Notes: generated by a model from the sequence alone, not told the origin. Counted from the stretch's first letter, positions 37,263 through 41,623 are shown. The stretch: 41,623 bases of DNA from Candidatus Roizmanbacteria bacterium (GCA_016214055.1 JACRPE010000015.1:1-41623), one strand, 5' to 3'. A program made the numbers and translations.

Positions 37263-37855
37263 AATAAATTCCAATCTTCCAAATTTTCCTTAAGTCTTTC
37301 GGGTGAGGTGAAAAGAATAGTTTTCATCCCCATTTTTGCGGCCGGATCCAACATCTTTTGTTTATCATCAATAAATACCGTTTCATTGGGTAAAGATCCG
37401 CTTACTGACAGTGCATATTCGTATATTTTTGGATCAGGCTTTCTGACTCCAACCTCATGGGAAAATATTCCACCTTGAAATAATTTCTTGAAATCGAATT
37501 TCTTGTCTAAAGCATCGACTCTTTCTTTTACGTTATCCGATAAATAATATATTTTGTACTTCTTGGACAAATCTTCAATTATTTGCCTCGTTCCTGAGAT
37601 TAATTCATAACCATCAATCCACTGCTTTTCCAAAAGGTTCACGTCATTATCTATTTTTAAATTTTCTTTTACCTGCCTCCAAAACTCATCTCTTGTTATT
37701 TTTGCTTCCCGGTATTGAGATCCAATATCTCCATCAAGCATATCTTTAACTTTTTCTTCAGGAATAGAATAGCTAGTGCTCAGTTGATGAATAAAGATTT
37801 TTGTTCCATTAGTGAATAAAACTCCTCCTAAGTCAAATAAGAATGTTGTTATCAT
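37259..37855 (-). CDS. HAD-superfamily hydrolase
   Basis: A 198-residue haloacid-dehalogenase-like phosphatase of subfamily IA. Motif I is FDLGGVLF (the first Asp only; the usual second Asp is replaced by Gly), motif II YLSDN, the motif III Lys is in VRKPDPKIYEYAL, and motif IV FIDDK. The DxG form of motif I (Asp, Leu, Gly) is common in HAD-IA proteins of unknown substrate. It overlaps both neighbouring genes by ATGA-type junctions. Confidence 0.88.
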   Translation of the reverse strand: MITTFLFDLGGVLFTNGTKIFIHQLSTSYSIPEEKVKDMLDGDIGSQYREAKITRDEFWRQVKENLKIDNDVNLLEKQWIDGYELISGTRQIIEDLSKKYKIYYLSDNVKERVDALDKKFDFKKLFQGGIFSHEVGVRKPDPKIYEYALSVSGSLPNETVFIDDKQKMLDPAAKMGMKTILFTSPERLKENLEDWNLL

Positions 37856-38475
37856 GTAGATATTATATCAACATTTCCCACTCCAATTTTCTCCCATTTC
37901 GCTGGAAATTCTTGAGGGTCGACTACCAAGGCGGTTATGCTGTCAATTCCTACTCCATACTTCATACCAGATAGTTTAATCTCATCCTTCAATAACTGCT
38001 GGCGGCCTCTTTCAGTATAGTGTGGCTCAATGATGGTATTTTTTAATATTCCCAAGCCGTCAATAATTTTATGTTCATTATTTCCTCCTCTTTGACCTTC
38101 TCCCATAAGCTTAGATCCTGCCGATTCGGCAACGATATACTCTGCGATCAATATCAACTGAAGAATTCTTTTATCATTTCTTACTCCATTTAATAAGTCG
38201 TAACATCCGTGGCCGCCATTAATAAATATAAGAGGGTTGGTTGCTTTCAGGATATCTTTCTCAATTCTTGCATCTAGGATTTCAACTCCCGAATCTTTCA
38301 TAGTTTCTTTAAACCATCCTTCTTTCCACACTTCCTCAGATGGATGAAGTCGAGCAAAGGGTACGTGGAAGATTTGTTGTGGTTTTAATGAAAGGATAAC
38401 GTCTTTTATTTGTTTCTTGAGCAGAGGAGCTTGATTGAGTTGCGTTTCCGCTCCTCCGAATAGATACAGTTTCAT
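37852..38475 (-). CDS. peptidase S51-like protein (PepE/cyanophycinase type)
   Basis: A 207-residue protein with a KLYLFGGAE start, an FINGGHGC segment and a nucleophile region VAESAGSKLMG matching the S51 family, which cleaves aspartyl dipeptides or cyanophycin-type bonds. The PHYTERGR segment supplies the expected His. TATACT (minus-strand 38487-38482) lies 6 nt before the ATG, so the mRNA should be leaderless. It is the first gene of the hydrolase operon. Confidence 0.8.
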   Translation of the reverse strand: MKLYLFGGAETQLNQAPLLKKQIKDVILSLKPQQIFHVPFARLHPSEEVWKEGWFKETMKDSGVEILDARIEKDILKATNPLIFINGGHGCYDLLNGVRNDKRILQLILIAEYIVAESAGSKLMGEGQRGGNNEHKIIDGLGILKNTIIEPHYTERGRQQLLKDEIKLSGMKYGVGIDSITALVVDPQEFPAKWEKIGVGNVDIIST

Positions 38476-38500: not shown

Positions 38501-39991
38501 TCAACCGAGACTTTTTCTCAGGACTGCCGCTTTCTTAATTGAAGATTGTGGATTCACTCCTTTTTTCATTTGAGATACAATTTGAGCTACTAATTGACAA
38601 TGTTCTATTTCAGTTTTAGTTTTTGGTCCCAAGCTCTCACCTACATAATCTTCAATAATTTTTATATCTTTTTTAAGATCTTTTAAACAAAGCTCATTAG
38701 CACTTTCTTTACGGAGGTATCTACCAGCCTTAAGAAGCATAGGTTTCAAGCCGGTATATAAAGACTCGATAAGCTTTATCTTATTTTCTTTTATAGCTTT
38801 TTTTAGACCTTTTCCCATTCCCAGTAATTCAGGGGGGATACCTAATGAGTAACAACAAGCTGTAAAACCAATAGCCCGGGGAAGTTTTGTACCACCTACC
38901 TCCCGTGAATACCCAAAAAGTCCAATATGCTGGAAACGCTCACGTCTTTTGGGAATATAACGACTGAGATTGTTTACAAAGGGAGCAATTTGTATAACCA
39001 TTTCTTTATAAGATGTTTCAAACCACGGGATAATGGAATTTATGTCTTTCCCCGTTTTATCTGAAAGGATTACTGATTTCGATAAAGGAAGTTCCTTTAT
39101 CATTTTTTGTATAGCAGATCTAACTTTTTGAACGGGAAAATCATAGCGAAAAGATGATTGGATAACGACTGTTTTTATTCCTTGAAATTCCTGCATAAAT
39201 TCATCTACGATCTCAGGTGTTAATCCACCACGAAAGGGGAGAGCTCCCGGGGCTATGATAGGGTAAGTTAAAATTCCTGTATCTTGGGTAAATTTCGCAT
39301 ACTCTGAAAGGGCCCATTTGATAGCTAAAGTGGTTGGGACGATGCCGGAATTTAGTGCGGGGTCTGAGCGGGCACAGAAGGGTCTTAAATATATGGGTAC
39401 AGAGTGAAATTTATTTTTAGTGAATTCAATATATTTCTTTAATATTTTTCCTGAATTCAAAAGGGTTCGTACATCCTCGAAAGTTGGAATTACTTCTATT
39501 GAGTCAAAAGGGAGATGAGTTCCCTTGAATGTAATATGTACCGTTCTTGCAAGTCTTTGAAAACTTTTTTGAATATAGGACATATCTTCAGCTTTTTCAG
39601 TTAATGGCAAAATGACTTCAAATAAGGGAGGCGAGTGTATTTCATGTGATAACGCCAATTGGCGGGCAGATAATATGACCATAAATGCCCGTGCAAGTCG
39701 AAATCCAGTTTCGACCGCGGGATTGGGAATCCGAAACGTAATAAATACTTCCTTTCCAATTGGTTTTTTTTTAAAAAATTCTGAATAATCTTGTAACAGT
39801 CTTTCAATAACGGATTCATCCACTAGTTTTCCTTCCCAATCCCACATATATTCTTGAGCCCCCAATTCCTTGAACATCAGATAACATTCAAATAATTCAT
39901 GATGAGTTTCAATATATGGTTTGTTGTGCCAATAAGGAGTCGAGGCGTTATCTGGGTGTTGTGAGAACATTACTGAAGGAATCTTCCTCAT
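38501..39991 (-). CDS. ppcA: archaeal-type phosphoenolpyruvate carboxylase
   Basis: The enzyme carboxylates PEP to oxaloacetate. It is the short archaeal type (PpcA), here 496 residues, not the 900-residue bacterial Ppc. Signatures are the N-terminal PSVMFSQHPDNA and EEL-like KELGAQEYMWDWEGK, the central RPFCARSDPALNSG, and GFSREVG-like GYSREVGGTKLPRAIGFTA. This form is common in archaea and sporadic in bacteria. It overlaps the aminotransferase gene by ATGA, so oxaloacetate made here would be aminated to aspartate by its operon partner. Confidence 0.95.
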   Translation of the reverse strand: MRKIPSVMFSQHPDNASTPYWHNKPYIETHHELFECYLMFKELGAQEYMWDWEGKLVDESVIERLLQDYSEFFKKKPIGKEVFITFRIPNPAVETGFRLARAFMVILSARQLALSHEIHSPPLFEVILPLTEKAEDMSYIQKSFQRLARTVHITFKGTHLPFDSIEVIPTFEDVRTLLNSGKILKKYIEFTKNKFHSVPIYLRPFCARSDPALNSGIVPTTLAIKWALSEYAKFTQDTGILTYPIIAPGALPFRGGLTPEIVDEFMQEFQGIKTVVIQSSFRYDFPVQKVRSAIQKMIKELPLSKSVILSDKTGKDINSIIPWFETSYKEMVIQIAPFVNNLSRYIPKRRERFQHIGLFGYSREVGGTKLPRAIGFTACCYSLGIPPELLGMGKGLKKAIKENKIKLIESLYTGLKPMLLKAGRYLRKESANELCLKDLKKDIKIIEDYVGESLGPKTKTEIEHCQLVAQIVSQMKKGVNPQSSIKKAAVLRKSLG

Positions 39992-41163
39992 GTTGATTGA
40001 TTTTTATTTTTTATAAATGTATTTATATTCTTAACTCCCTCTGATAAATTTTTTATGGATGTAGTAAAACATATGCGTATATAGCCAGGTGCATAAAATG
40101 CCTCTCCAGGTATAACCGCAACAGATGCCACACTAAGAAGTGCCTCTGCCCATTTTTCTGACGTAGGATATTTTTTATTTAATAACTTTTGAATATTAAC
40201 AAAAAGATAAAACGTTCCCTCAGGTTTCTCCCATGACAGATCAGTCATCTGAGTCAAAGCTCGACATAAAAAATCCCTTCTTTTTTTAAATTCCTTTATC
40301 ATTTTTTTAATCGGTAATTGATCACCGGAAAGTGCTACTACAGCAGCTTTTTGTGAGATTGAAGAAGTATTAGAAGTTGTTTGTCCCTGAAGATTAATCA
40401 TTGCCTGAATTATCTTTTGCGGACCAGCCGCGTAGCCTATGCGCCAACCAGTCATCGCGTATGTTTTAGAAAATCCGTTGATGATAATAGTTAACTGTTT
40501 AATTTTTTCTCCAAAAGAAGCTATGGAATAATGCTTTTTCTCATAAATAATTTTTTCATATATTTCGTCCGAAATGACATAGATACCTTTTTCAACTGCA
40601 ATCTGTGCTATTTTTTTCAGCTCATTTTTTTCAATTAAGGAACCTGTCGGGTTAGATGGAGAGTTGAGGAGGATAACTTTTGTTTTGTTTGTTATGTGTT
40701 TTTTTATATTGAGAGCTGTTATTTTGAACGGAAATTTCAGCGGTATCAATATTGGCTTTGCACCTGTAAGTATAATCTGTTCTATATAGGTACTCCATGT
40801 GGGTGTGGGAACAATTACTTCATCCCCCGTCTCACATAATACTTGAAAAACATGATACAGAAGTTGTTTGGCACCGACTCCCACCGCAATTTCCTGAGGT
40901 GTATAATTAACTCCGTTTTCCTGAGCTAATTTAGCCACAATTGCTTTTCGTAAATCTAATATTCCTGCAGTTGCTGTATAGTGAGTAAACCCATCTCGAA
41001 TTGCGCAAACGCCGGCTTCCTGAATATATTTTGGTGTAGGAAAATCGGGTTCACCCAAGGTAAGATTAATAACCGGAATACCCTCAAGTTGCATCTGTTT
41101 AACCTTTGCATCAATTGCAAATGTCGGCGAGGGCTGTAATTTTAGAATTCGTTTACTTAACAT
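39988..41163 (-). CDS. class I aspartate aminotransferase (AspB type)
   Basis: A 391-residue PLP enzyme. The N-terminal INLTLGEPDFPTP, the HYTATAGILDLRKAI segment, NSPSNPTGS, the PLP lysine in NGFSKTYAMTGWRIGY and the Arg in YIRICFT are typical of bacterial subgroup Ib aspartate aminotransferases. With ppcA it forms a PEP to oxaloacetate to aspartate operon. Expression is controlled by the T-box leader upstream. Confidence 0.93.
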   Translation of the reverse strand: MLSKRILKLQPSPTFAIDAKVKQMQLEGIPVINLTLGEPDFPTPKYIQEAGVCAIRDGFTHYTATAGILDLRKAIVAKLAQENGVNYTPQEIAVGVGAKQLLYHVFQVLCETGDEVIVPTPTWSTYIEQIILTGAKPILIPLKFPFKITALNIKKHITNKTKVILLNSPSNPTGSLIEKNELKKIAQIAVEKGIYVISDEIYEKIIYEKKHYSIASFGEKIKQLTIIINGFSKTYAMTGWRIGYAAGPQKIIQAMINLQGQTTSNTSSISQKAAVVALSGDQLPIKKMIKEFKKRRDFLCRALTQMTDLSWEKPEGTFYLFVNIQKLLNKKYPTSEKWAEALLSVASVAVIPGEAFYAPGYIRICFTTSIKNLSEGVKNINTFIKNKNQST

Positions 41164-41175
41164 ATTTTTCCAAAT

Positions 41176-41394
41176 AAAAAACCTCGCCTCTATCTACTAA
41201 CACAAATGTAGTAGACAAGGACGAGGTTTCTCGTGGTGCCACCTTGTTTTTCCTGTAATATCCAGGACTCATGCATCTGATCTCTCAGTATGTATTACTT
41301 CTGTTACGGGAATTCCCGGCAAGGTTCTACTTTCTCAATTTTTTGAGATTTCTTCCTGCGGCTTAGGAGTGTTAACTCCCTCATTGCCTTCACG
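41176..41394 (-). ncRNA. T-box riboswitch upstream of aspartate aminotransferase-ppcA
   Basis: On the minus strand a T-box bulge TGGCACC (41241-41235) is enclosed by ACAAGG/CCTTGT and ACGAG/CTCGT, the antiterminator. The same CCTCGTCC strand instead forms the terminator (CCTCG..CGAGG with an inner TCTACTA/TAGTAGA stem) ending in six T's at 41181-41176. A stem I base is visible (CCCG and GGCAA with TTGCCGGG at 41322-41315). The bulge TGGC pairs with tRNA ending GCCA, so discriminator G73, as in tRNA Asn and Asp. A candidate specifier is AAC (41326-41324), weakly supported. Confidence 0.88.
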
Positions 41395-41400
41395 GGCTTC

Positions 41401-41429
41401 ATTGTAGATTAAGTAAAATATTTTGTCAA
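41401..41429 (-). promoter_or_regulatory. sigma-70 promoter of the T-box leader
   Basis: TTGACA (minus-strand 41429-41424), a 17-bp spacer and TACAAT (41406-41401) form the best consensus promoter in the window. The -35 overlaps the stop codon of the transposase remnant. Confidence 0.85.
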
Positions 41430-41623
41430 GTTAATGTATAAGTCACATACATTTGAGACTCTTGAGGAAGAACTTGTAAGAAGTAATTAATAGGTGTCAC
41501 ATTGCCCAATGCTTTATGTACCCTTTTTGTATTGTACCAAAGAAGATAATCAATAAGGCGGGAGTTAAATACGGAGAGACCATCATGAATGAGGTCAATG
41601 TTGCCATCTACAAACTCCTCCTG
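41426..41623 (-). mobile_element. 3' end of an integrase-core transposase (partial, runs off window)
   Basis: The last 65 codons of a transposase on the minus strand continue past the right edge. FNSRLIDYLLWYNTKRVHKA followed by LGNVTPINYF is the C-terminal end of the rve integrase core used by IS3/IS481-type elements (YN..R.H.ALG..TP..Y). The N-terminal part with the DDE residues is outside the window. The stop TGA is embedded in the -35 of the T-box promoter. Confidence 0.88.

Follow-up and report, generated by a model that had tools for sequence, protein, structure and literature searches.

In Candidatus Roizmanbacteria bacterium, an operon for aspartate formation, comprising the genes of a probable aspartate aminotransferase (AspAT) and of the archaeal-type PEP carboxylase PpcA, is preceded by a T-box with an ultrashort stem I, which we judge, with a probability of about 0.9, to sense uncharged tRNA-Asn and to control the operon by transcription antitermination. 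We infer tRNA binding and antitermination in the cell from the anatomy of the leader, the covariation of its helices, the agreement between specifiers and downstream genes, and a matching tRNA with G73. The window analyzed here was a whole contig of 41,623 nt (GCA_016214055.1 JACRPE010000015.1:1-41623). Its genome, labelled G000, measures 1.2 Mb in 26 contigs and is 97% complete; it is related to MAGs of Gottesmanbacteria, Roizmanbacteria, Woesebacteria and the like, which places this tiny, uncultured bacterium in the class Microgenomatia of the Patescibacteria (Candidate Phyla Radiation).

The leader and its operon

On the minus strand at the contig end, a promoter, the T-box leader, a terminator, the aminotransferase gene and the PpcA gene follow one another from 5' to 3', and each element lies where a preliminary description of this DNA had placed it. 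The sigma-70-type promoter TTGACA-17-TACAAT (41401-41429, minus strand) has 11 of 12 consensus letters and a predicted start at about 41394; it is the best promoter of the region, in which promoter-like sites overall are no commoner than in shuffled sequences. The C-terminus of an integrase-core transposase (rve_2, about 41433-41623, minus strand) ends a few nucleotides before the -35 box of this promoter, at the contig end. From the start, which is only predicted, to the AspAT start codon the leader spans about 230 nt (41164-41394, minus strand), with a minimum free energy of -77 kcal/mol (z = -5.97) that was reached by none of 200 shuffles.

The first gene (39988-41163, minus strand) encodes a class I aminotransferase (PF00155, 9.5e-74), which stands beside PpcA in several relatives too. 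Its best NCBIfam model is the archaeal aspartate aminotransferase, at 415 bits and thus below the 550-bit cut-off of that model, and aspartate is its probable substrate. The second reading frame (38501-39991, minus strand), overlapping the first by 4 nt, encodes PpcA (TIGR02751, PF14010), with a full-length TIGR02751 match of 462.5 bits versus a curated cut-off of 146. After a gap of 25 bp, from which operon membership is suggested, a gene at 37852-38475 (minus strand) may be the third of the operon; its product is weakly similar to cyanophycinase (S51-type; PDB 7uqv, E 6e-7) and carries an ESAGS nucleophile-like motif.

The T-box model RF00230 matched positions 41214-41393 (minus strand) across its whole length in an Rfam covariance search, with 51.7 bits and an E-value of 1.7e-10. 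The gathering-score scan of the window gave nothing above cut-off, which is 93 bits for RF00230, and a score under the threshold formally speaks against the T-box proposed in the preliminary description; this was outweighed by the E-value, by covariation and by homologous leaders on the same operon. The 93-bit cut-off misses most Microgenomatia T-box matches: 18 of 373 genomes have one above it versus 173 of 373 at E <= 1e-5, many of the latter with an ultrashort stem I and a transcription terminator. Only two of five control genomes with T-box matches have one above the gathering cut-off. At the level of sequence, the leader is confirmed as a genuine T-box.

Stem I (41360-41388, minus strand) is 29 nt in total and consists of a basal helix GGC/GCC, a kink-turn-like element AAUGA/AA, and above it a single hairpin of 4-5 bp, GGGAG-UUAACA-CUCCU. 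The AAUGA/AA element aligns to the kink-turn of RF00230, with one of the two canonical G-A pairs replaced by A-A (AA for GA). The window leader has neither the distal stem I nor the elbow-binding double T-loop module that characterize canonical transcriptional T-boxes. A short stem I without the canonical long arm, as first noticed, is therefore upheld, and it proved to be a recurrent ultrashort type in Microgenomatia. In 16 leaders, 97.3% of the stem I alignment cells were paired, 24 of them with both sides changed, which none of 500 shuffles matched; both-side changes occurred in six of seven pairs, and slid controls were only 21-44% paired.

Downstream, stem II (41319-41359, minus strand), identified from sequence and model alignment, carries the S-turn motifs GAA (41352-41350) and AGUA (41331-41328), and the motif is conserved in the leader alignment. 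It is followed by the stem IIA/B element CGGGAAUUCCCGUAAC (41303-41318, minus strand; sequence and model alignment), which would form a pseudoknot, and by a folded stem III (UCCUG...CAGGA; 41251-41267, minus strand). In some rows of a MAFFT alignment of the leader 5' halves, stem II and IIA were out of register, so base pairs of IIA and of the antiterminator were tallied on segments cut by hand, and the formal covariation test covered stem I only. The covarying helices, together with an antiterminator, bulge and specifier that are specific to T-boxes, leave hardly any probability for leader-peptide attenuation or for an attenuator under protein control that only looks like a T-box, even though a leader AUG opens a frame of 26 codons. 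This frame, the only one in the leader, has no Asn or Asp codons, and leader-peptide attenuation was rejected.

tRNA-Asn as the probable ligand

The triplet AAC (Asn) lies in the hairpin loop of stem I (41371-41373, minus strand) and is followed by the purine A41370. Across leaders with recognizable genes, the triplet next to a purine on the 3' side of this loop agrees with the downstream gene's amino acid in 27 of 28 cases, the exception being a SerB leader (L277); when genes were permuted, the mean agreement was 7.1 and the maximum 16 in 20,000 trials. The agreement spans Asp/Asn (AspRS, PpcA, AspAT-PpcA and asparaginase), Pro (ProRS and proB), Ile, Val, Trp, Gly and Arg. Loops were delimited by hand, loci were picked for recognizable genes, and a few genes, L002, L024 and L273 among them, were named by reading only, which makes the test strong but not blind. 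The earlier suggestion that AAC is a possible specifier thus stands, with a tRNA-Asn(GUU) in the genome.

That tRNA was found in an unusual form. Among the 45 intact tRNA genes of G000 there is no intact tRNA-Asn, and a tRNA-Asn pattern search found an intact gene in four relatives and none in the genus of the window. A single group I intron was found in the genome (RF00028; G000:C24:5820-6033, L151 1501-1714; 83.2 bits versus a gathering cut-off of 50); it lies between TCCCCTGTAGCTCAATTGGTAGAGCAGGTCGCTGT and TAACGACAAGGTTACTGGTCCGAGTCCAGTCGGGGGAG, and ARAGORN recognizes the joined exons as tRNA-Asn(gtt), with G73. The intron sits inside the anticodon, between positions 35 and 36 (U35 and U36), so that the split gene is missed by standard tRNA finders, and the tRNA would become functional by splicing. 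A genus-mate assembled as a single contig (G002) has the same intron-split tRNA-Asn; the loci noted for this split in the genus are L151 and L152. Other unusual tRNAs of G000 are a tRNA-Ile(UAU) (L047 1501-1573) and a tRNA-Ser whose anticodon is ACU, in addition to one with GCU (L088 22-110).

G73 of tRNA-Asn pairs with the UGGC bulge of the antiterminator. The preliminary description had predicted G73 from this bulge, and a tRNA matching both it and the specifier does occur in the genome, but as the intron-split gene only. A second T-box of G000, in front of proB (L002, G000:C18:45955-46181), served as an internal control: it also has an ultrashort stem I, with CCC and UGGU, to which the A73-bearing tRNA-Pro(GGG) of this genome corresponds. 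The preliminary description had left the ligand as Asn or Asp; Asn is the reading here, and the same position is GAC (Asp) in two relatives. A switch that responds to tRNA-Asp, or to tRNA-Asp and tRNA-Asn both, would suit an operon that makes aspartate, and tRNA-Asp also has G73; it is nevertheless improbable, since AAC has no full codon-anticodon match to the GUC anticodon of tRNA-Asp. The two related leaders that read GAC are PpcA leaders, but AAC is kept in five PpcA leaders of diverse lineages, and GAC is kept in AspRS leaders.

The charging route of tRNA-Asn bears on why an aspartate operon would respond to it. No AsnRS scored above cut-off in any of ten genomes (G000 and nine relatives), versus seven of 14 control genomes, and the class II D/K/N synthetases found in G000 are AspRS, LysRS and an EpmA-like protein. 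In bacteria without AsnRS, it is established biochemistry that tRNA-Asn is loaded with aspartate and then amidated (PMC2494555). With no detectable AsnRS and with GatB present, Asn-tRNA-Asn is probably made via aspartate in G000, and its AspRS, which is of the bacterial type, would then be non-discriminating. That no AsnRS is detectable thus accounts for the tie between tRNA-Asn and aspartate formation. Two AsnB-like proteins are also encoded in G000.

Probable antitermination and the role of the hairpin

The antiterminator CAAGG-UGGCACC-ACGAG-AAAC-CUCGU-CCUUG (41216-41246, minus strand; -8.3 kcal/mol) was identified by model alignment and folding, and its bulge UGGC (41241-41238, minus strand) is complementary to the tRNA 3' end GCCA. 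An intrinsic terminator with a U6 tail (41176-41227, minus strand) folds to -24.1 kcal/mol versus -8.5 +/- 2.4 for shuffles. Because both structures, the antiterminator with its UGGCACC bulge included, use the strand CUCGUCCUUG, they are mutually exclusive. The complete antiterminator/terminator pair and the consensus promoter of the preliminary description are thus both present. A generic terminator scan of the region did not have the window terminator among its listed sites, and microRNA matches over the terminator in the Rfam search were dismissed as chance matches of a long hairpin.

The hairpin could instead act mainly on translation, with the antiterminator as an anti-sequestrator and the hairpin hiding the ribosome-binding site, as in the actinobacterial ultrashort ileS T-boxes. 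An ultrashort stem I has otherwise been described for translational T-boxes (PMC7583486), and about half of the ultrashort leaders place ATG directly after the U-run, with purine-rich, Shine-Dalgarno-like letters in the 3' arm of the hairpin. In the window leader, however, the ATG lies 18 nt past the start of the U-run, with a weak GGA between, and the hairpin leaves the start codon uncovered; this larger distance makes termination the likelier mechanism there. Furthermore, a stable hairpin with a run of at least five T after it, as expected for intrinsic termination, is found in 45 of 51 ultrashort leaders (among the RF00230 matches listed, from which all class-wide leaders were taken). We therefore regard control mainly at translation as unlikely in the window.

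Elsewhere in the class the two levels may be combined. In 25 of those 45 leaders the T-run starts no more than 14 nt from the ATG, mostly as TTTTTTTATG, and the letters in the hairpin 3' arm of leaders with ATG near the T-run are AGGA/GAGG-like. Where ATG stands right after the terminator, as in about half of the ultrashort leaders (L001-L030 and L238-L315; e.g., L255, L252, L272 and L275), the run has seven T. The arrangement suggests that in leaders of this kind a single hairpin may control transcription and translation alike, as a combined terminator and sequestrator. The window leader itself is best described, from its sequence, as a transcriptional T-box variant with an ultrashort stem I.

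According to the antitermination reading, AAC in the loop would pair with the anticodon GUU of tRNA-Asn once the latter is spliced, and the S-turn of stem II would support this pairing. The free 3' end GCCA of an uncharged tRNA would pair with UGGC and stabilize the antiterminator, so that RNA polymerase reads on; a charged tRNA would make no such pairing, the terminator would form, and transcription would stop. Since tRNA-Asn is probably charged with aspartate first and amidated afterwards, its uncharged form would signal a shortage of aspartate, which the operon would relieve by converting PEP and bicarbonate to oxaloacetate and then to aspartate. Counting against this reading are the RF00230 score below the gathering cut-off, the absence of an elbow-binding long stem I, the lack of the second canonical G-A pair in the kink-turn-like element and the two AsnB-like proteins.

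Related leaders, known T-boxes and implications

Six further PEP carboxylase operons have such leaders, with AAC in four of them (L158, L161, L176 and L183) and GAC in two (L173 and L255). L158 and L183 are two copies within one Gottesmanbacteria genome, L176 belongs to Woesebacteria, and L161 is on a contig binned, possibly wrongly, as Exilispira; a Wirthbacteria T-box (L201) is of another form. The AspRS leaders L011, L249, L253 and L262 and the asparaginase leader L279 carry GAC. The order is T-box(GAC)-PpcA-aminotransferase-AspRS in G115 (L318) and T-box(AAC)-PpcA-aspartate--tRNA(Asn) ligase in G085 (L319), where the PpcA frame is broken in the assembly. In this Gottesmanbacteria operon the ligase is fused to a tRNA_edit (YbaK/ProX-type) domain (L319 1087-2880, minus strand). 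Tandem T-boxes stand ahead of one transcription unit in L013/L026 (G049:C3) and in L005/L028 (G003:C13).

In the PpcA tree, the window falls together with L158, L161 and L183 in one supported set of eight. The tree does not support a common origin for the T-boxes of PpcA operons, as the label needs about seven changes, at least four of them forced by supported branches. In one relative of the same family the AspAT-PpcA pair lacks a T-box, and the genus-mates G001 and G002 have neither T-box nor PpcA, so the switch is not conserved at the genus level. Most PpcA loci in other Patescibacteria are without a T-box; for several of these the contig begins so near PpcA that a T-box could have been missed. 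The scattered label, the relative without a T-box and the genus-mates without PpcA thus indicate that the T-box on PpcA operons was gained or lost repeatedly. If the T-box were decayed or silent and travelled with a mobile segment at the end of the contig, this would fit both the genus-mates that lack the operon and the integrase C-terminus just upstream of the promoter, but every part is intact (promoter, all stems, bulge, specifier and terminator) and the arrangement is found again at other loci, which makes decay very improbable.

A review associates an ultrashort stem I with translational and a long stem I with transcriptional T-boxes, which generally need the tRNA-elbow-binding motif of a long stem I if they are to capture tRNA in time (PMC7583486). 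The actinobacterial class II ileS T-box (Mycobacterium smegmatis, Nocardia farcinica and M. tuberculosis) has a kink-turn, to which the kink-turn-like element of the window leader would correspond, and shares with this leader the short hairpin, the stem II S-turn, stem IIA/B and the lack of an elbow module (PMC7583486; PMC10651847). That T-box is translational and binds tRNA-Ile, whereas the window leader has an Asn specifier and, in place of the class II Shine-Dalgarno sequestrator, a terminator of -24.1 kcal/mol with U6. The specifier of the ileS T-box, too, reportedly lies in the loop, according to Sherwood et al. in 2015 and 2018. With the canonical class I T-box (RF00230, Firmicutes) the window leader has in common the promoter, the UGGN-bulge antiterminator, the exclusive U-run terminator and the specifier-tRNA logic; it differs in having no distal stem I or double T-loop elbow module, in its score under the Rfam cut-off and in its phylum, Patescibacteria. 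The T-box of the Clostridium acetobutylicum transamidation operon, said by Saad et al. in 2013 to bind tRNA-Asn and to be a two-codon T-box, likewise couples tRNA-Asn to the indirect Asp-to-Asn-tRNA route, but the window leader has a single codon, an ultrashort stem I and a PEP carboxylase operon.

A 2008 survey placed T-boxes in Firmicutes, Actinobacteria, Chloroflexi, Deinococcus/Thermus and Proteobacteria (PMC2494555). In the openly readable literature, as distinct from Rfam full alignments and TBDB entries, we found no report of T-boxes in the Candidate Phyla Radiation, Patescibacteria or Microgenomates, and they are likely, if not proven, to be new for this taxon. TBDB mentions class I hits whose stem I is truncated (PMC7778990), and single cases may therefore already be recorded in databases. 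The readable literature assigns an ultrashort stem I and a transcription terminator to different classes, and their combination would be new. No tRNA-controlled expression of archaeal-type PEP carboxylase (PpcA, TIGR02751) was found in the literature searched. We see an even chance that Microgenomatia possess a large, apparently undescribed regulon of transcription-terminating T-box leaders with ultrashort stem I, the start codon often being fused to the U-run and a single hairpin thus able to block transcription as well as translation, and that in the lineage of the window the ligand is a tRNA-Asn whose own anticodon is interrupted by a group I intron that has to be removed first.

Minimal stem I elements ahead of intrinsic terminators across a whole class make the requirement for a long stem I (PMC7583486) directly testable, and the smallest working transcriptional T-box may be among the ultrashort leaders of Microgenomatia. 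Archaeal-type PEP carboxylase would be tied to amino acid demand via the indirect Asp-to-Asn tRNA route, and the Candidate Phyla Radiation, in which regulation is nearly unexplored, would gain a tRNA-based layer of control over amino acid metabolism.
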